Part shown: positions 2,904 to 46,077 of the stretch, piece after piece
Position numbering within the stretch: the first letter of the stretch is position 1
Layout: every line of letters begins with the position of its first letter
Assembly: GCF_023544715.1 (NCBI RefSeq)
Contig: NZ_JAMJEZ010000014.1
Coordinates: 1-62,930 of the forward strand
Direction: 5' to 3'
Length of the DNA: 62,930 nucleotides
From: Pseudomonas eutrophicaquae
Lineage (GTDB): Bacteria > Pseudomonadota > Gammaproteobacteria > Pseudomonadales > Pseudomonadaceae
Translations under genes and position numbers: made by a program
Notes under the pieces: model-generated
What the model saw: the letters and a program-made list of their open reading frames with translations, nothing else
Told to the model about the DNA's origin: nothing
Databases searched by the model: none

Positions 2904-3220
2904 GAAGGGCGCAACCTTGCGATAGGGAAAATACAGGATACGCAGTCTAATCAGGTGGTCCGGTGTCTGACAACGCGGTCAGCAGGAAGCCTCATCGCCT
3001 GATGACTACGAAGGATTGGGCTTTCAATTTCAATAAGCACAATATGATTATGTTAAACAAGGTCTCTTTGCTGACGGTGTTTAGTTGATCTCGTCACGCA
3101 CTGCTTCACCCAGCGACCTGCCTTCAGTCTTTCGTTGGCATAATTCACAGATTGAGATACCCAGCCATCGGCATGTCGGCACCTTGTCGCGCTGCGTGCG
3201 GCCTTCGCCTAGGACTTTGC
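2904..3220. other. intergenic region between divergent galU and hybrid kinase gene
   Basis: 317 bases with no convincing gene. It must hold the promoters of both divergent genes. A TATGAT -10-like hexamer at 3043-3048 points toward the kinase gene within a locally AT-rich stretch (about 3020-3065), but no good -35 stands at standard spacing. An in-frame ATG at 3152 would extend the kinase; it is not preferred because the added residues look non-coding. Confidence 0.4.
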
Positions 3221-6200
3221 ATGAGCACCCCTTCCAGCCCAAAACATCTGGCGTCTGTTGCGACCGCACTATGGCAGCAGACCGCTGTACTGATCGGCTG
3301 TCTGCTGACCGGCCTGAGCACTGCTCTGCTCAGTGATCACGGCGCCACACTATTGGCCTGGCCTTTCATGGTCGTGTGCGTCCTGGCCGGTGTACTGACC
3401 GGCCCCCGTGCCATCGCTGGTACCTGGCTGGCAGCCACCCTGCTTCTGCTCTGGATGATGGATAACGCCCACAATTTGTTGCTCGATCTGACGCAAACGC
3501 TGATACCCGCAGCCTGCGCGGGAGTCAGTGGCTGGCTGACGCAGAAGCGCCTGCGCGAGCATCAGCCCCCCGCTACGCCTGAACCCTTGCTGCCGTCGCG
3601 CAGTCCGCGTGGGCAGCCTGATGATCGCCTGATCGAAGCCCTGCCTCAGGCACTCTTGATCAGCAGCGACGGTTACTGCAGCCACGCCAGCCGCGCTGCG
3701 CTGCAGCTGCTGGGCACCTCGCACAGTGCATTGCTGGGTCAGCCGTTGCTTGAATGGGCTTATGCCGAAAGCCAGGCCGCACTGCAGCGTCACCTGCAGC
3801 AGCGCCCGCCCGATGCGCCCCCCTTGCCCGCCACTCCGATACACCTGCAGCGCGCCAACGCCAAAGACCTCTGGCTGAGGGTTCACTCCGTCCCCTGTCA
3901 CTACCGGGGGCGGCCCGCGACGCTGCTGTTGCTAGAGGAACTGGCGCCGATGCAAGGTGATGCCGGGGATGACCTGCTGTTCAGGCTGTCCCAGGATCTG
4001 CTGGCCTATCTGGATGATGACGGCCATCTGCTGCGCATAAACCCCGCCCTTGCGGCACGCCTCGAGCCCTCGACACGCCCGTTCCTCGGGCAATCGCTCA
4101 GCGACGTGCTGCATCCTGACGATCGCCCTCATCTTGAGCAGGCGCTGCACCAAGCCTTGCAGACACAGACTCCGCAGCGTCTCGAGACACGCCTGCGAAG
4201 CCCGTCACAACAGTGGCTCTGGGTGGATTGGCAACTGTCCGCCCACGGCGCCGGCTGGCTGCTCTGCGGCCGGGACACCACCGAACAGCATCGTCATCAA
4301 CAACTGCAGCATATGGACCGCGCCACGGCGCCGCAGGCGGCTACCGCACATGACGCCCAGATTGAGCACGCCCTCACCCGCCTGCTGGACCACCTGATCG
4401 AAGGGGTACTGACGCTCGATACGCACGGGCGGATTCTGCACAGCAACCCCGCGGCGCAGCGTCTTTTCGGCCTCGAATCCGACGCACTGACCCGCCTGTC
4501 CCTGCCGCAGCTACTCTCAAGTCCTGATCGCGATCACCTGCAAGAGGCGCTGATCAGCCACGCGGCCGGCGAAGACACGCCGTGGCTTGCGCAGCGGCTT
4601 GAGCTGCACGCCCAGCACCGCAGTGGACGCACGCTGATCCTGGAGCTGAGCCTGTTCCAGCACACCTTGCGCGGTCATACGCAGTGGGTGGCGACGCTGC
4701 GTGACATCAGCGAGCGCCGGGTCTTGATCGACAGCCTGACCGAGGCGCGCCGCGAGGCTGAGCAGGCCAGCGAGGCCAAATCCAGCTTCCTCGCCACCAT
4801 GAGTCACGAAATTCGCACCCCCATGAATGGCGTGCTGGGCATGCTCGAGGTGCTGGCCCACACCCCGCTGGATGCGCAGCAAGAGGAAATGGTTGGCGTC
4901 ATTCGCGACTCGGCCACCCTGCTGCTGGGCATCATCAATGACATTCTGGATTTTTCGAAGATCGAAGCCAGCCGACTGGAAATCGAGTCCGTAGCGCTGT
5001 CCAGCGCCACCCTGATCGAGCAAGTCTGTGCCCTGCTAGATCGACAGGCCCTACAAAATGGCGTCGAGCTGACACTGTTTACCGACCCGCAGATTCCCGC
5101 CTCGCTGCTGGGCGATCCTCTGCGCCTGCGTCAAGTGCTGGTCAACCTGCTGGGCAACGCCATCAAGTTCTCCCGCCACGAGCAGGGCCATGGGCGCGTC
5201 GAAGTCCGCAGCCGTCTGCTGTCACGGGATCAGGCCATGGTGCACCTGGAAATCAGCGTGCGCGACAACGGCATCGGCATCAGCGCCGAGGCCCAGCGTC
5301 ATCTGTTCCAGGCCTTCACCCAGGCCGACAGCTCGACCACCCGGCGTTTTGGCGGCACCGGTCTGGGGCTGGCCATCTGTCATCGACTGGTGACGCTGAT
5401 GGGCGGGCGCATCGAAGTGGACAGCCGCCCAGGCGAGGGCTCCACCTTCCGCGTGCTGCTGAGCCTGCCGCTCGCCGAATCAGCTGCCGCGCCGACTACG
5501 CAGCGCCTGGATGGCGTATGCGCCCTGATCGTCGGCCTACGCGAGGGGCTGCTGGCGGATCTGGCCTGCTATCTCGAGGACGAGGGCGTCTGGCTGAGTC
5601 ATCTGCCGACACTCAGCAGTCCGCTGACCGACCGCCTGGCCCGGCGCGCGCAGTTCTGTCTGATCAGCGCGGATCACGCTGCTCCCAGCCAGGCCCAGCT
5701 CGAAACTGCCGCACAAGCCTGGCAACTGCCGGGGCTGCCCTTCCTTTGCATCGGCCATGGCGAACAGCGCCAGGCACAGCGCCGGAGCGACACGCAGGTG
5801 CAGATTGATCGCCATCTGCTGCGCCGCAACAGCTTTATCGAAGCCGTCGAGCTGACCCTCGGCCGGCGCGTCGAGCCGGTGCGCCGTGCGGCCACCACGC
5901 AGAGCTTGAGTGCGCCCAGCCGGGCCGAGGCGCTGGCCAGCGGCCGGCTGATACTGCTGGCTGAAGACAACGCCATCAACCAGAAGGTCTTGCTGCGCCA
6001 GCTGGGGCTGATCGGCCTGACCGCCGATGTGGCCAATGATGGTGTCGAGGCGCTGCAGCGCTGGCACAGCGGTGACTATGCCCTGCTGCTCAGCGACCTG
6101 CAGATGCCCAATATGGACGGTCTGCAGCTGGCCCAGGCCATCCGGGATGCCGAGGGCCCGGTGCAGCATCTGCCGATCATTGCCCTGACCGCCAATACCC

Positions 6201-6763
6201 AGCAGGGCGCCATCCAGGCCTGTCTGGCCGCCGGCATGGACGACTACCTGAGCAAGCCGGCCCAGATTGAGGAGCTGCGGGCGATGATCGAGCGCTGGCT
6301 GCCGCCGCGCGCCAGCGCCCCCGCGCCCGCGGCAGTAGTGCCGGCGCCAGCACCCACGGCTTCTCCCGTTGCCACAGCGCCAGTGTCACCTGACGCGCCC
6401 CCCAGCGCCTTCCGCGCCAGCGATCCGCGCACCCTGGATCTGGATGTGCTGCGCGCGATGGTGGGTGACGAGGATGAGGTGCTGGACGAGTTTCTCGCGG
6501 ACTTTCGGGCGGCGGCAGCGCGCATGCTGGATGAGCTGGACGAGCGCCAGATGCAGGACGATGCCGCCGCCATCGCCAGCCTCGCGCATCGCCTCAAGTC
6601 CAATGCCCGCTCGGTCGGCGCCCTGAACATGGGTGAGCTGTGCGCGCGCCTGGAAGAAGCCGGCAACCAGCGCCAGCCCGGTGCTCCACGGGCAGCGCTG
6701 CTGGAGGCGCTGCGTCAGGAGTGGGAACACGTTGCCGACGGCATCGACCGACGGCTCGGCTGA
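3221..6763 (+). CDS. BarA/GacS-like hybrid sensor histidine kinase with PAS repeats
   Basis: 1180 residues from the ATG at 3221 (AGGA upstream). About four membrane segments lie within residues 15-110, followed by three PAS-like domains (about 150-245, 255-370, 390-510). The HisKA phosphosite His529 is in MSHEIRTPMNG, followed by an HATPase with N, G1 and G2 boxes (NLLGNAIKF, DNGIGI, FGGTGLGL). A receiver-like segment at about 760-870 lacks the acceptor Asp. A true receiver carries Asp959 (SDLQMPNMDG), and the C-terminal Hpt has His1123 (AHRLKSNARSVG). This is a full phosphorelay chain in one protein. It is not canonical GacS, because the N-terminus is a multi-pass membrane region with PAS domains rather than a periplasmic loop plus HAMP. 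The stimulus is unknown. The response regulator at 6850 is the likely partner. Confidence 0.85.
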   Translation: MSTPSSPKHLASVATALWQQTAVLIGCLLTGLSTALLSDHGATLLAWPFMVVCVLAGVLTGPRAIAGTWLAATLLLLWMMDNAHNLLLDLTQTLIPAACAGVSGWLTQKRLREHQPPATPEPLLPSRSPRGQPDDRLIEALPQALLISSDGYCSHASRAALQLLGTSHSALLGQPLLEWAYAESQAALQRHLQQRPPDAPPLPATPIHLQRANAKDLWLRVHSVPCHYRGRPATLLLLEELAPMQGDAGDDLLFRLSQDLLAYLDDDGHLLRINPALAARLEPSTRPFLGQSLSDVLHPDDRPHLEQALHQALQTQTPQRLETRLRSPSQQWLWVDWQLSAHGAGWLLCGRDTTEQHRHQQLQHMDRATAPQAATAHDAQIEHALTRLLDHLIEGVLTLDTHGRILHSNPAAQRLFGLESDALTRLSLPQLLSSPDRDHLQEALISHAAGEDTPWLAQRLELHAQHRSGRTLILELSLFQHTLRGHTQWVATLRDISERRVLIDSLTEARREAEQASEAKSSFLATMSHEIRTPMNGVLGMLEVLAHTPLDAQQEEMVGVIRDSATLLLGIINDILDFSKIEASRLEIESVALSSATLIEQVCALLDRQALQNGVELTLFTDPQIPASLLGDPLRLRQVLVNLLGNAIKFSRHEQGHGRVEVRSRLLSRDQAMVHLEISVRDNGIGISAEAQRHLFQAFTQADSSTTRRFGGTGLGLAICHRLVTLMGGRIEVDSRPGEGSTFRVLLSLPLAESAAAPTTQRLDGVCALIVGLREGLLADLACYLEDEGVWLSHLPTLSSPLTDRLARRAQFCLISADHAAPSQAQLETAAQAWQLPGLPFLCIGHGEQRQAQRRSDTQVQIDRHLLRRNSFIEAVELTLGRRVEPVRRAATTQSLSAPSRAEALASGRLILLAEDNAINQKVLLRQLGLIGLTADVANDGVEALQRWHSGDYALLLSDLQMPNMDGLQLAQAIRDAEGPVQHLPIIALTANTQQGAIQACLAAGMDDYLSKPAQIEELRAMIERWLPPRASAPAPAAVVPAPAPTASPVATAPVSPDAPPSAFRASDPRTLDLDVLRAMVGDEDEVLDEFLADFRAAAARMLDELDERQMQDDAAAIASLAHRLKSNARSVGALNMGELCARLEEAGNQRQPGAPRAALLEALRQEWEHVADGIDRRLG

Positions 6764-40549: not shown

Positions 40550-40765
40550 CGCAGAAACTCCATGAGCCAGAAAGCGGTGCACCGGCACCGTTGATCGTCC
40601 GGGGCTTTATGCCCGCGCCGCGGCGCGCTTGTCCAGCCTGTGGGCACCCTGCACGCCCTCAACTCTGGTTACAGAATACGGATACCTCCCCGGGTAACCG
40701 CCAATTTCCGCCCCCTGAGCGCGCACGTAGAATCGACGCCAATTTCCGCACGCAGGCCCTCACCC

Positions 40766-42532
40766 ATGCCGCTGTCGATCGCCGCCCTGAGCCCACGCAC
40801 CGCATCATCTGCCACGCCACCGGCCTCGCGTGGGCGCCTGCTGCTGAACCTGCTGCTGCTCAGCAGCCTGAGCAGCGTACTGCTGATGGCCGATGACTTC
40901 CTGCAGCAGCTGTTCACACCGGCCAACCACGCCGAACTGGAGCTGCGCTTCGTGCTGGTGGTCTTTCTGTTCAGCCTGGCGCTCTGGCTATGCGCGATGC
41001 CGCGCCTGGTCAGCGCCTTGCTGGTGATGCTGGCCGGCATGCAGCTGATCCAGCTGGGGCATGTGTCGTTCTTTGGCGAGCCCTTGAATGCCATGGACAT
41101 CGCCAGCCTGTTCAGCGACTGGGCCGAGGTGCAGGAAACCGCCTGGCATAGCCTCGGCGATCACTGGAACGTGCTGCCCAGCGTGCTGCTGCCCTATGGC
41201 CTGCTGCTCTGGCTGCACCGCACCCTGCCTGCGCGGATCGCCCTGCCGCGCAGCCGCTGGGCCCTGCTGATCATCGTGCTGGTGCTGGGGGCCAAACCGT
41301 ACCGGGCGACCTACCGCGACTTCAGCGCCTTCACCCCGGGGCCAACCCGCAGCGCGCTGCACAACAGCTTCAATGCCTTTACCTATTTCGGCGTGCGGCT
41401 GGCCTTCCGTGAGCAGGAAAGCCTGCCACCTGCGCCCTTCAGCCCGTACCGGATCATCGCCCAGCCCAGCCAGACCCGGCACATCTGGGTGGTGGTGGCT
41501 GACTCGCTGCGCACCGACCGTCTGCCGATGTACGGTTACTCACGCAATACCACCCCGACCCTGAATCGCCTGCATGCCAGCGGTCAATTGCTGGCACGCC
41601 CAGGAATTGCCGCCGGTGTGGCCACCGCGGTCAGCCTGCCCAACCTGCTCAATGCCATCCGCGAACCCGGACAACCGCACCTGCTGCGCCAGCAACCCCA
41701 CAACCTGTTTGCCCTGGCCCGCCGCACCGGCTTCAAGACCCACTGGGTCTCTGCCCAGGAGTCCAAACTGCTCAGCCACCTTGGCCAGCGGCATCTGGAT
41801 GTGTCGATCACCCGCGAGGATTACCCGCTGCGCTTTCTGGAGCGTCACGACCATACACTGATCGACTTGCTGGCCGAGCAGGGCTGGCAGTCGCCCAGTT
41901 TCGCGGTCATCAACCTGCGCACCGCGCACCTGCCTTATGAGGAAAACTACGATCAGCACGATGAGCCCGTGGCGCTCTGGCCGACCGATGCCGCACTGCC
42001 GCGCGAGGTGCGTCAGGCCAATGCCTACGACAATGCCCTGCGCTATCTCGATGATGTGCTGGAGGGCATCATCCAGCAGTTCGAGCAGCTTGAGGGCGAG
42101 CGTTACCTGCTGATCACCGGTGATCATGGCCAGCTGCTCGGCGAGGATGGGCGCTGGGGACATAACGATCTGCGCGCGGAAGTGGCCGAAGTCCCAGTCA
42201 TGGTGCTGGCCCGCGAGGCACCGGCCGAGGCGCTGCATGCGCTGGAAGACAAACGCTGGATCAGTCATTACCAGGCCGCCCGCTGGACAGCGCAACGCCT
42301 GGGCTGGCACATCGACAATCCCAACCAGCGCGCCGGCGAGCACTTTGTGCAGGGCAAGCTGCTGTTTGGCGATAACCTGATCCAGCGGGTCGTGGAGACC
42401 GAACAGGGGCTGCGTTACGAAGAGCCGCGCCTGCTCAGCCGCTGGCTGCGCCAGCTGCCGGCCACCGATCAGCCACAACCACAGCTCGGCGATACGCGCA
42501 GCCCCGCGCCAGCAGCCACGCCCAATGGCTGA
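40766..42532 (+). CDS. sulfatase/phosphoethanolamine-transferase-like membrane protein
   Basis: 588 residues from ATG 40766. About five hydrophobic helices in the first 190 residues precede a periplasmic alkaline-phosphatase-fold domain. The domain opens IWVVVADSLRTDRLPMYGY (metal Asp), has the nucleophile region GVATAVSLPNLL (Thr expected in the AT-x-VSLP context) and the metal motif LLITGDHGQLLGE near the end. EptA/CptA-type enzymes add phosphoethanolamine to LPS lipid A or core; OpgB-type enzymes are an alternative. It may alter surface charge. Substrate not determined by sequence. Confidence 0.75.
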   Translation: MPLSIAALSPRTASSATPPASRGRLLLNLLLLSSLSSVLLMADDFLQQLFTPANHAELELRFVLVVFLFSLALWLCAMPRLVSALLVMLAGMQLIQLGHVSFFGEPLNAMDIASLFSDWAEVQETAWHSLGDHWNVLPSVLLPYGLLLWLHRTLPARIALPRSRWALLIIVLVLGAKPYRATYRDFSAFTPGPTRSALHNSFNAFTYFGVRLAFREQESLPPAPFSPYRIIAQPSQTRHIWVVVADSLRTDRLPMYGYSRNTTPTLNRLHASGQLLARPGIAAGVATAVSLPNLLNAIREPGQPHLLRQQPHNLFALARRTGFKTHWVSAQESKLLSHLGQRHLDVSITREDYPLRFLERHDHTLIDLLAEQGWQSPSFAVINLRTAHLPYEENYDQHDEPVALWPTDAALPREVRQANAYDNALRYLDDVLEGIIQQFEQLEGERYLLITGDHGQLLGEDGRWGHNDLRAEVAEVPVMVLAREAPAEALHALEDKRWISHYQAARWTAQRLGWHIDNPNQRAGEHFVQGKLLFGDNLIQRVVETEQGLRYEEPRLLSRWLRQLPATDQPQPQLGDTRSPAPAATPNG

Positions 42533-42577: not shown

Positions 42578-43171
42578 TCAGCCACGTGTAGTCAGGGCGT
42601 GCTGATACAGCCTGAAGGCCTGGCAGGCGGCCTCGATCACCTCGGGTACAGCCTTGGCATCAGCGCAGACCTGCGCCGCCTGCTGCAGATAAGACGGCCA
42701 GTGGCGTCCCGCCTCGGCCGTGCCCAGGAAGAGACAGGGCACCTGCTCACCCAGACGCCGCCGCACCTGCACCGCCAGCACCTCGCTGCCGAGCCGTGCG
42801 CCTTCCAGTACATAGCGCCAGCCAGTCAGTACCGGCACGCTGCATGTGGCCGGATCCAGCACAGCCTGCCACGCTTCACCCTCACCCGGCTCAGTGCATG
42901 GCGGGCAGAGAGGTGCCAGAGCCTGCAGGTCCGCCGTCAAGGCGGGTAGGCGCGGTGCATATGGCTGATTAGCCATGCCCACTCTCACCGCACCCTGCGT
43001 CAGTGCCGTCTCCAGCAGCATCTGAGGCCGGTAAAGTGCCTGCAGGGCATCGGCGTACTGTTCGATCGTGATCGCGGGGCGTAGCAGCGCCTGCAGTACG
43101 GGCTGTTGATCAAGGGCCTGATGATGCCCGCGCGTCGCCGTACGCAAGGCCTCAAGCCAGGGGGGCGTCAT
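42578..43171 (-). CDS. bphO: heme oxygenase, biliverdin-producing (BphO type)
   Basis: 197 residues from ATG 43171, which overlaps the stop of the phytochrome gene (ATGA). Starts MTPPWLEALRTATRGHHQAL, containing the proximal heme-ligand His region of bacterial HemO/BphO; VLTGWRYVLEGARLGSEVL is the conserved distal-helix glycine region. Cleaves heme to biliverdin, the chromophore of the neighbouring phytochrome. Coupling of bphO to bphP is a known bacterial arrangement. Confidence 0.85.
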   Translation of the reverse strand: MTPPWLEALRTATRGHHQALDQQPVLQALLRPAITIEQYADALQALYRPQMLLETALTQGAVRVGMANQPYAPRLPALTADLQALAPLCPPCTEPGEGEAWQAVLDPATCSVPVLTGWRYVLEGARLGSEVLAVQVRRRLGEQVPCLFLGTAEAGRHWPSYLQQAAQVCADAKAVPEVIEAACQAFRLYQHALTTRG

Positions 43172-44445
43172 GCCGCTACCTCCCCCAGCAGGCGCCTCAT
43201 CAACCCGCGCAGTTTGAGCAGCCTGAGCTCGGCATGGCTGGGCCAGGGCCGTGAATACCCCAGACGCCGCTCGACCCAACGCTCGAAGGAGCGGCGCGGC
43301 GCAATGGCCGACGCTCCGCCGATGATCTCGACCGGCTTATCCGGGTTACCGCCCCAGGCCACCTGCTGCACTTCCTCACTGCGGCAGAGCAGCACCCGCA
43401 AGAACCGACCGGGGCCCAGCGCCTCACGACTGGCCAGCACACCGGCCACCACCGAAAGCGGTATCCCCGGACAATCGCGCCGCAGGCTTTCCGTCACACG
43501 GGTGCTGCCCTGACCGGGCTCATCACACCAGTGACAGACCGCACGCAGGGCATCCGGCTCCAGACAGACACCGGCGCTATAGAGATGCTGGCCGTCATCG
43601 ACCATCAGCCCGTCCGCCTCAAACTCCTGACACAACCAGCCACTCAGCCCGCTCAACGTGTGGGCGGCCAGCAACGGGAACGAGACCGCCGCCCTCACCC
43701 CCATGTTGCCCATGTACAGCCGATGTACCGGTGACAGGCCACGCAGATCGGTCAGTGACAGGTCAGCGCTAACCCCGTCCACGCCCAGCAGGGCGATATC
43801 GGCGGCCTCGGCATCGGGAATGCTGCGCCAGGGGTTGCGCACGTATAGCGTGCGCGCGACCTGCGGAATGTCACTGGCCGGAAAACGCAGCCCCAGATAA
43901 CTGCCCGTAATCCCCTCAGCACGCACCTCACCCAGTACCTCGCCATCGCCTTCAAGCAAGAAGCGGTAATACAGCACACGATCAAAACCACTGGCCGACA
44001 ACAAATGCTGCAGCAAAGTCGTGCGCGCCTGCTCCAGAGCATGTTCATCAGCAAATGCCTGCACGCGGCGCCGGCCACCGAGCGATGCAGGTAGCCTGGC
44101 ATCATCGTCTATCCCCGCCGGCAGCAATTTAATCAACTGCTCGCCGCACTCACCGCGCACGGCACTCAGCAGACATTCACCGTGCGCGCCGCGAAACAGA
44201 CGGGCTGCTTGCCGCGCACCGGCGGTGGCCCCCAGCGCGCTCACGGCCTCAGCCAGCGGGGCGGGCAGAGGTTGTCCCAGCAAGTGCGGGGCAGGAACCT
44301 TCAACCAGGCCTCGATATTCGCGGAAACCTGCGTGACACAGCCCTGCCGGTCGGCAATCAGCAGAGCACCATGGCCCTGAATGCAACCGCAATACTGCAA
44401 CGCCTCACGCTCGCAGGCGTCGATAAATCCGTGGGTCTGGGTCAT
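43168..44445 (-). CDS. bphP: bacteriophytochrome photosensory core without output domain
   Basis: 425 residues from ATG 44445, preceded by GAGGGAGGTGGC, a strong Shine-Dalgarno. The PAS domain carries the candidate biliverdin-binding Cys11 in the N-terminal stretch DACEREALQYCGCIQGHGAL. The GAF domain (about 120-285) has FPASDIPQVARTLYVRNPW and SPVHRLYMGNMGVRAAVSF. The PHY domain (about 300-420) holds WGGNPDKPV and the tongue motif PRRSF. The protein stops right after PHY (LKLRGLMRRLLGEVAA): no HisKA, HATPase, GGDEF or other effector. Family BphPs of 700+ residues normally continue into a histidine kinase. The frame ends in a clean stop overlapped by bphO, so it is not an obvious frameshift. 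A partner protein must carry the output. Confidence 0.85.
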   Translation of the reverse strand: MTQTHGFIDACEREALQYCGCIQGHGALLIADRQGCVTQVSANIEAWLKVPAPHLLGQPLPAPLAEAVSALGATAGARQAARLFRGAHGECLLSAVRGECGEQLIKLLPAGIDDDARLPASLGGRRRVQAFADEHALEQARTTLLQHLLSASGFDRVLYYRFLLEGDGEVLGEVRAEGITGSYLGLRFPASDIPQVARTLYVRNPWRSIPDAEAADIALLGVDGVSADLSLTDLRGLSPVHRLYMGNMGVRAAVSFPLLAAHTLSGLSGWLCQEFEADGLMVDDGQHLYSAGVCLEPDALRAVCHWCDEPGQGSTRVTESLRRDCPGIPLSVVAGVLASREALGPGRFLRVLLCRSEEVQQVAWGGNPDKPVEIIGGASAIAPRRSFERWVERRLGYSRPWPSHAELRLLKLRGLMRRLLGEVAA

Positions 44446-44500
44446 GCCACCTCCCTCTTGCATACAGGCTCTCTCCCTGCCCAGCCGCGCTGCGCGGCAA

Positions 44501-45043
44501 TCAGGCGTCCTCGCCGTCCCCTTCAGCGCTCAAACGGCTTTCATAACTCGGCGCCGCATATATGCCCACCTCGACCGCCAAGGCCAGTACACGAGGTACA
44601 TCCTCACGATAGACCAGCACCGCCTGCAGCTCATCATCCAGCGGCTCGCTGAAATCGATCAGTACGTAACCGCCTTTTTCCGGATACAGGCTGCCCAGCT
44701 GCACCTGGATGCGCCGCAGCGCGGTCAGCAGGTCGGCACGAGCCAGATCGCACGGTTTAAGCACGAAGCTGACCTGCGGCCCGAACGAGGCCTGGATCTG
44801 CCGATACAACGCCTCGGCGGTATCGGCCTGAAACAAGACGGTATCCGGCAGGCTGCCCACGATGACCCACTCCCCTAAAGGGATCGGGAAGCTGTCGTCG
44901 TAGTTGATGTCCGGATTGGCGGCCAGAAAGCCGTCGGCGTCGGCATAGGCGGCGCTGGCCTCGGCGGCAATGCGCTGGATGTCCTGCTCACTCAGGCAGC
45001 CGGAGCTGATCAGGGTGAGCAGCTCGATCAAAGAGTCGTGCAT
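44501..45043 (-). CDS. uncharacterised protein leading the phytochrome operon
   Basis: 180 residues; I do not recognise a family. Acidic, no signal peptide or membrane segment, hence cytoplasmic. Visible features: an N-terminal helical part (about 1-40), a strand-rich middle with WVIVGSLPDTVLFQADTAEA, a segment FVLKPCDLARADLLTALRR, and a hydrophobic core stretch GGYVLIDFSEP then VLALAVEVGIYAAPSY. It is first in an operon with the output-less phytochrome (55 bp downstream) and heme oxygenase, so it is a natural candidate partner, chaperone or output. It could also be a general stress protein placed there by chance. Confidence 0.7.
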   Translation of the reverse strand: MHDSLIELLTLISSGCLSEQDIQRIAAEASAAYADADGFLAANPDINYDDSFPIPLGEWVIVGSLPDTVLFQADTAEALYRQIQASFGPQVSFVLKPCDLARADLLTALRRIQVQLGSLYPEKGGYVLIDFSEPLDDELQAVLVYREDVPRVLALAVEVGIYAAPSYESRLSAEGDGEDA

Positions 45044-45351: not shown

Positions 45352-46077
45352 ATGCTCAAATCCCTGACCCTCGCCCTCGGCGCCACCAGCGCCCTTATCG
45401 GCGCCAGCCTGACGCAGGCCGAAACCGTGGCCAGCCCGGTCGGCGCCTTCGAGATCAGCATGAATGCTGGCCTGGCCAGCGATTACGTGTTCCGCGGCAT
45501 CTCCCAGACCCAGGGCAGTGGCGCCATCCAGGGTGGTCTGGACGTAGCCCACGAGAGCGGCCTGTATGTCGGTACCTGGGCCTCTAACGTCGACTTTGGC
45601 GGCAAGGCCTCGGTGGAGTTCGACTATTACCTGGGCTTTGCCGGCAGCCTGGGCGAGACGCTCAGTTATGATCTTGGCTGGATCAAATACGCCTACCCCG
45701 GCGAAAGCGCACTGAACTTCACGGAAACCTACGCCAGCCTCAGTGCCTACGGCGCCAGCGTAGGCGCAGCGTATTCCAGCGACGTCGGTGGTAGCGACAG
45801 CACGCTGTACAGCTACCTGGGCTATGAATACACCCTGCCCTATGAGATCGGCCTGGCCTTGCAATATGGCCGCTACGACTTCAAACAGACGACCTTCGCC
45901 AGCGGCGGCAGTGCCTACAACGACTGGTCAATCGGCTTGAGCAAGACCCTGGCCGGTCTCGACCTGGGCCTGACCTATACCGATACCGATCTCAGCAGCA
46001 CCGACTGCGCAGGCTTTGTCGGCAAGAAGGACTTCTGTGACGCCAACCTGACCTTCTCGGTCAGCAAGACACTCTGA
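45352..46077 (+). CDS. TorF-family putative outer membrane porin
   Basis: 241 residues. Signal peptide about 1-23 (SALIGASLTQA). Mature part starts EISMNAGLASDYVFRGISQTQ, diagnostic of the TorF/Gcw_chp family, and continues as amphipathic beta strands ending in Leu. Pseudomonas copies are often found with glnK-amtB and controlled by nitrogen; here there is no glnK or amtB, but the sigma-54-type promoter suggests the same control. Transport substrate unknown. Confidence 0.83.
   Translation: MLKSLTLALGATSALIGASLTQAETVASPVGAFEISMNAGLASDYVFRGISQTQGSGAIQGGLDVAHESGLYVGTWASNVDFGGKASVEFDYYLGFAGSLGETLSYDLGWIKYAYPGESALNFTETYASLSAYGASVGAAYSSDVGGSDSTLYSYLGYEYTLPYEIGLALQYGRYDFKQTTFASGGSAYNDWSIGLSKTLAGLDLGLTYTDTDLSSTDCAGFVGKKDFCDANLTFSVSKTL

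Follow-up and report, generated by a model that had tools for sequence, protein, structure and literature searches.

The window analysed here is a 62,930-nucleotide stretch of a Pseudomonas eutrophicaquae contig that carries, on its minus strand, the bacteriophytochrome gene bphP (43168..44445) and, directly downstream of it, the heme oxygenase gene bphO (42578..43171, minus strand), an arrangement that is usual in the output-less phytochrome clade described below. The bphP stop codon and the bphO start codon share an ATGA, and the clean stop in this overlap, already claimed from the letters alone, is borne out at the sequence level. BphO matches the Pfam Heme_oxygenase profile at 1.3e-10 and is expected to make biliverdin; a phmmer comparison of BphO with the PDB returns no match at 0.001. 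A gene for a 180-aa conserved Pseudomonadaceae protein (44501..45043, minus strand) lies 55 nt upstream of bphP. The boundary of the unit is formed by a convergent gene for a sulfatase-family protein beyond bphO (40640..42532, plus strand; Pfam), and on the other side a gene for a Gcw_chp family protein (45352..46077, plus strand; Pfam) diverges from the 180-aa gene and adjoins its homologue in the congener G003 too. Third-position G+C is 0.72 in bphP and bphO versus 0.77-0.87 in the seven other genes measured, which hints weakly at a foreign origin or at relaxed codon selection. At 3152-6763 the window also encodes a large hybrid-type sensor kinase, in which PAS, HisKA, receiver and Hpt domains are combined, at a distance of 36 kb from bphP.

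The bphP frame is open over 425 codons, is preceded by a GGGAGGTGG stretch upstream of its ATG (a second possible ATG lies at 44463), and encodes an output-less PAS-GAF-PHY chain, as assigned from Pfam, alignment and trees. The residues Cys11, FPASDIP and PRRSF are all present, as the sequence-only reading of this DNA had reported; the PAS-GAF-PHY chain is not complete, 69 residues being gone. In Pfam, PAS_2 and PHY exceed their cut-offs, GAF reaches 18.4 bits versus a cut-off of 22.4, and the PHY match begins only at position 27 of the 183 positions of the profile. The NCBIfam model NF041576, which we take to describe the kinase-type bacteriophytochrome BphP, gives 137 bits versus the 1040 required. 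Behind PHY, Pfam and NCBIfam find no HisKA/HATPase module of the kind that marks a bacteriophytochrome histidine kinase, and there is no fused GGDEF domain of the kind that marks PadC; no output domain of any sort is encoded there, in agreement with the first reading of the locus. Coding on the opposite strand was considered, and the five plus-strand open reading frames scanned in the region give no Pfam match at 0.01. A second phytochrome supplying the output was likewise rejected: the only PHY match in the organism's own genome (2.55 Mb in 57 contigs, 99.85% complete) is the window bphP itself.

The phytochrome is output-less by descent, as a member of a clade whose proteins end after PHY. 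A scan of named genomes finds seven relatives at 42-47% identity in Halomonas/Vreelandella and in Marinobacter bryozoorum, and these and further relatives stop after PHY as the window protein does, an N-terminal-Cys PAS-GAF-PHY chain ending directly after PHY. A kinase hidden by a sequencing error near 43168, which the earlier interpretation had named among the cases that would overturn it, is very unlikely because relatives end at about the same position, and it was dropped as a candidate since alignment and tree place that end in the whole clade. A tree was built from 60 PAS-GAF-PHY sequences, of which 15 are output-less, 17 carry GGDEF behind PHY and 28 are the best-matching ones from the organism's own family; a branch with support 100/99 separates the output-less BphPs from all the rest. 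A second tree of 57 sequences, which takes in G150 and G191 and omits five near-copies, again gives 100/99 for the same branch, which there holds 17 of the rows; the tree program cautions that this join brings long branches together. The M. bryozoorum, V. lionensis, G891 and G618 copies, all broken, are in neither tree. The window BphP pairs with that of G858, a close relative, at 98/90 in the first tree and 93/71 in the second, and its exact sister is unsure because of this fall.

Short-frame phytochrome matches in G150, G191, G273, G854 (apparently the same genome as G190) and G883 were re-examined. G191 yields a further intact operon, with genes of 1492, 499 and 196 codons. G150 yields a clade member with bphO (L173:4181-6339), its tongue reading PQHSF instead of PRxSF. 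The remaining three lie outside the clade or are broken; G854 and G883 account for two further short frames in the Halomonadaceae scan, and the G883 frame does not belong to the clade and ends at a contig end. In G854 (L176:5069-7077) a 447-aa phytochrome frame and, 50 nt behind it, a GGDEF frame of its own (204 aa) make up another phytochrome-GGDEF arrangement that is either split or broken, outside the output-less clade. A phytochrome beside a bphO-like frame in G091 (L104:4215-6382) is read in two frames that overlap, 369 and 358 aa long, and is possibly another broken copy.

The usual neighbour of these output-less phytochromes is a gene for a CheB-CheR-PAS-GGDEF(-EAL) protein. The locus was compared in 20 other genomes (20 loci from 17 genomes, three of them represented twice, together with G618, G191 and G150), and this gene stands directly upstream of bphP in 19 of them. 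In 18 of the 20, bphO follows bphP directly; the M. bryozoorum locus shows no bphO, and in G247 the gene lies about 5 kb off on the other strand. The bphP start falls -10 to +7 nt from the stop of the upstream gene in 13 of 17 genomes and 46-70 nt off, according to the start chosen, in three, with an overlap of 95 in the broken copy of M. bryozoorum. Where loci first showed only a GGDEF-EAL end, CheB-CheR was then placed in the same upstream frame. Pfam identifies CheB, CheR, PAS and GGDEF in all three partner proteins searched and EAL in two, the M. bryozoorum protein having lost nearly all of EAL. Broken copies occur in four of the 20 genomes (M. bryozoorum, V. lionensis, G891 and G618), and some of their frameshifts may be sequencing errors; in G618 (L135:7097-9926) a deletion with a frame change joins the CheB-CheR frame to BphP, which continues from its residue 44, and the module is either broken or fused. 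The association is not invariable. In the surrounding 11 kb of G150 there is no match to the CheB-CheR protein, the best match elsewhere being 38% identical, which excludes an obligate association and indicates that the bphP-bphO pair can exist without this partner. In the window, too, the gene directly upstream of bphP is not a CheB-CheR gene, the 180-aa gene occupying that place.

Co-occurrence in Halomonadaceae points to the same partner. An output-less BphP is present in 11 of 201 genomes, and a match of at least 60% identity to the CheB-CheR protein is found in 10 of these 11 versus none of the 190 others, in which the next best match is 49%; in the eleventh, G858, the match is 43% and the gene abuts bphP. 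The longer phytochromes of Halomonadaceae served as controls and have a GGDEF match directly behind PHY at 17 of 17 loci. At nine of these loci a further, separate match of EAL or GGDEF-EAL type lies no more than 1.5 kb away, so finding a c-di-GMP gene close to a phytochrome does not by itself set the clade apart. Three side observations bear on CheB-CheR matches elsewhere: in two genomes of genus g5 (L105:4712-5890 and L106:5020-6225) a protein of about 400 aa with a partial PHY match is encoded divergently from a gene for about 1400 aa with a 38-39% CheB-CheR match, and in G846 (L171:1964-13794) a phytochrome of 684 aa has a CheB-CheR gene of 1543 aa at a distance of about 5 kb. Because the operon of an output-less BphP in most cases also encodes a candidate effector as a protein of its own, the clade is best understood as photoreceptors that act in trans. 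The kind of system first proposed for the locus, a split photoreceptor, thus stands, with a separate candidate effector in the operon in 19 of 20 genomes, and its candidate partner changes from the 180-residue protein to the CheB-CheR one.

The 180-residue protein had been named earlier as a possible receiver of the light state by protein contact within the operon. Such signalling is made conceivable by the common strand, the 55-nt gap and the simple scan that finds no promoter- or terminator-like site between the two genes, and it is very unlikely in view of how the protein is distributed. Of 195 genomes searched, 71 contain a member of this protein family, the organism's own among them, and all 71 belong to its taxonomic family; the gene is present in eight of eight congeners, which give no PHY match. 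Over 118 family genomes the table for the 180-aa gene and PHY reads 32/39/14/33 (Fisher p = 0.12, or 0.09 if G118 and G119 are counted as family members), which gives no clear association with phytochromes. The 31 other genomes with both genes have them on one contig in nine cases and on different contigs in 22, and the nearest spacing is 22 kb versus 1.3 kb in the window, so that a dedicated pair does not emerge from co-occurrence or adjacency. The neighbours of the gene vary across the 30 loci compared (own included), and the protein was found in none of seven genomes holding the CheB-CheR-bphP operon, in a search run without a positive control. It has no Pfam match above cut-off, no NCBIfam match and no PDB match, and its PHROG match is weak. 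The proposed check of whether the three genes co-occur across genomes therefore comes out against the earlier claim, the 180-residue gene not tracking output-less bphP; its distribution, and the failure to find it in operon genomes, led to rejection of the protein as the partner, and its gene is judged to be a chance upstream neighbour.

The earlier reading was silent on two further features, a deletion in the window BphP and a broken partner gene on another contig. Compared with its relatives, the window protein lacks 69 consecutive residues at residue 267/268 (window position about 43644/43645), and a separate comparison gives a matching gap, in which the query skips from residue 265 to 334. 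In the alignments the junction of this in-frame deletion (43639..43656, minus strand; residues 264-269) joins TTGAGCGGG to CTGAGTGGC, which form a short imperfect direct repeat. The stretch that is gone comprises the final GAF strand with its ISCH motif, including a near-invariant His (column 294 of alignment A1), and the long GAF-PHY connector, presumably the GAF-PHY helix of known phytochrome structures. The window BphP thus lacks the complete GAF strand and connector expected of a member of its clade. Outside the deletion it differs at four of 66 invariant columns, compared with one of 61 in G247 and with six of 66, nine of 69 and eight of 68 in more distant intact members of the clade. The idea of an old pseudogene is not supported, because the frame is open over its full length and few invariant columns have changed, and the stretch before the ATG is in place.

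The organism retains what appears to be its own copy of the CheB-CheR partner gene, multiply broken and on a contig other than that of bphP (G000:C55:28124-31754). This remnant is interrupted by a stop codon within CheB and by two frameshifts, and about 262 residues have been lost at a point where the frame also changes; it sits on a 136-kb contig between an intact sigma-70-family gene, which we take to be rpoS, and an intact enoyl-ACP-reductase-family gene, presumably fabI. It is 50-59% identical to the L094 enzyme, and its breaks look recent because this matches the value for the intact G247 enzyme (57%). Among the matches listed for the eight congeners, the best per genome are 38-41% identical and span approximately residues 795-1504, the PAS-GGDEF-EAL end, and none covers the CheB-CheR part. 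With 57 contigs, the assembly could be wrong at the deletion. That the whole picture is an assembly artefact and the organism really has an intact operon is a highly improbable account: it draws on the draft state of the genome and on the short imperfect repeat that flanks the deletion, and it has to contend with several independent breaks in a remnant between intact neighbours on one contig, a genome completeness of 99.85%, and other window genes that appear whole where scanned.

The deletion and the broken partner gene together make it doubtful that the window BphP still works. An unlikely alternative is a functional shortened phytochrome in which the loss of 69 residues is tolerated or adaptive, working with another protein or as a biliverdin- or heme-linked protein with BphO. 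The open frame, the intact start region, the few changes at invariant columns and the adjoining bphO are all compatible with this, as is the retention of bphP and bphO in G150 of the same clade, where the CheB-CheR neighbour is missing. The deletion, however, takes the last GAF strand with its near-invariant His and the GAF-PHY join, the G150 protein has no such deletion, and the organism's own copy of the natural partner gene is broken. Taken together, the data favour, with a probability of about 0.7, the explanation that the window bphP-bphO pair is a displaced and recently decaying remnant of a split red-light/c-di-GMP sensor.

The intact form of this sensor, as found in Halomonas/Vreelandella, in G247 as one other Pseudomonadaceae genome and in others, consists of a biliverdin-binding BphP that has no output domain and a CheB-CheR-PAS-GGDEF-EAL protein, encoded by genes that overlap or nearly abut, with BphO expected to provide the biliverdin. 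BphP, carrying the Cys, DIP and PRxSF motifs, and its partner would bind each other, and through this contact the PAS/coiled-coil region of the partner would receive the red/far-red switch of BphP. The light state of BphP may in this way set c-di-GMP synthesis or breakdown by the partner, in a direction that is likewise a matter of prediction. What has been observed is which genes are present, how they are ordered and overlap, that they co-occur in Halomonadaceae and that the sensors descend from one ancestor; the binding, the direction in which light acts and the c-di-GMP output are predicted parts of the scheme. In the window organism, where the partner gene is broken and unlinked and BphP has lost its GAF-PHY join, the pathway most likely no longer signals, and the organism most likely has no working light signal.

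The partner enzymes themselves add a further hint about the intact module. Nine enzymes were compared, from the 19 genomes with one, and the GGDEF, EAL and CheR motifs are kept in all nine, one CheR motif having a single changed letter. The three CheB motifs (Ser, His and Asp, which we assume to be the catalytic residues) are kept in eight, and these eight also keep a Glu-rich coil. The exception is the partner in G858 (L170:2451-6458), which has lost all three CheB motifs and the Glu pattern of the coil and retains the CheR SAM motif, GGDEF and EAL. By analogy with chemoreceptor methylation, the intact module might be a receptor-free light sensor with memory, in which BphP docks on the partner and also steers its methyltransferase and methylesterase halves, which would methylate the Glu-rich NEELQATNEEL coiled coil and thereby set the gain of c-di-GMP output. 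This idea is speculative and rather improbable, and the joint loss in G858 may be a hint in its favour from one case only.

Phytochromes are usually described as single chains carrying both input and output. A conserved operon that pairs an output-less phytochrome with a CheB-CheR-GGDEF-EAL enzyme is a natural case for how light states may pass between proteins, and the module is useful both for studies of mechanism and for red-light tools built from separate parts. A natural experiment comes from the genome of the window organism, where sensor and enzyme are damaged together, as fits a functional tie between them. In the open-licence PubMed Central literature, no description of an output-less BphP with a CheB-CheR-GGDEF(-EAL) module and no link of the CheB-CheR-PAS fusion to a phytochrome was found; the output-lacking proteins treated in the relevant part of PMC4618731 are response regulators and not phytochromes.

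Both halves of the idea have precedents, in that output-less photoreceptors acting in trans (PapB-PapA) and phytochrome-GGDEF fusions (PadC) are already known. The window BphP resembles the NF041576 type in its PAS-GAF-PHY core, N-terminal Cys, DIP motif and linkage to bphO, and differs from that kinase type in having no kinase and in its far lower score. The partner has the same domain order as the CheB-CheR-PAS fusion proteins with GGDEF/EAL. The phytochrome-activated diguanylate cyclases of the PadC type (IsPadC), for which homologues are named from Halomonas and Marinobacter too (PMC9587094), similarly have phytochrome input and GGDEF output; their GGDEF domain is fused behind PHY, whereas the window clade has no fused output and is separate from the fused forms in the trees. 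The closest likeness in kind is to PapB-PapA of Rhodopseudomonas palustris, as described in PMC8846402, where a BLUF sensor without an output domain controls a separate EAL enzyme by protein contact, likewise a sensor-only photoreceptor together with a c-di-GMP enzyme from another gene. That system joins a blue-light BLUF protein to a solo EAL enzyme, whereas here a phytochrome is joined to a CheB-CheR-PAS-GGDEF-EAL protein, and the contact reported for PapB-PapA is, for the BphP module, the one that its gene arrangement would predict.
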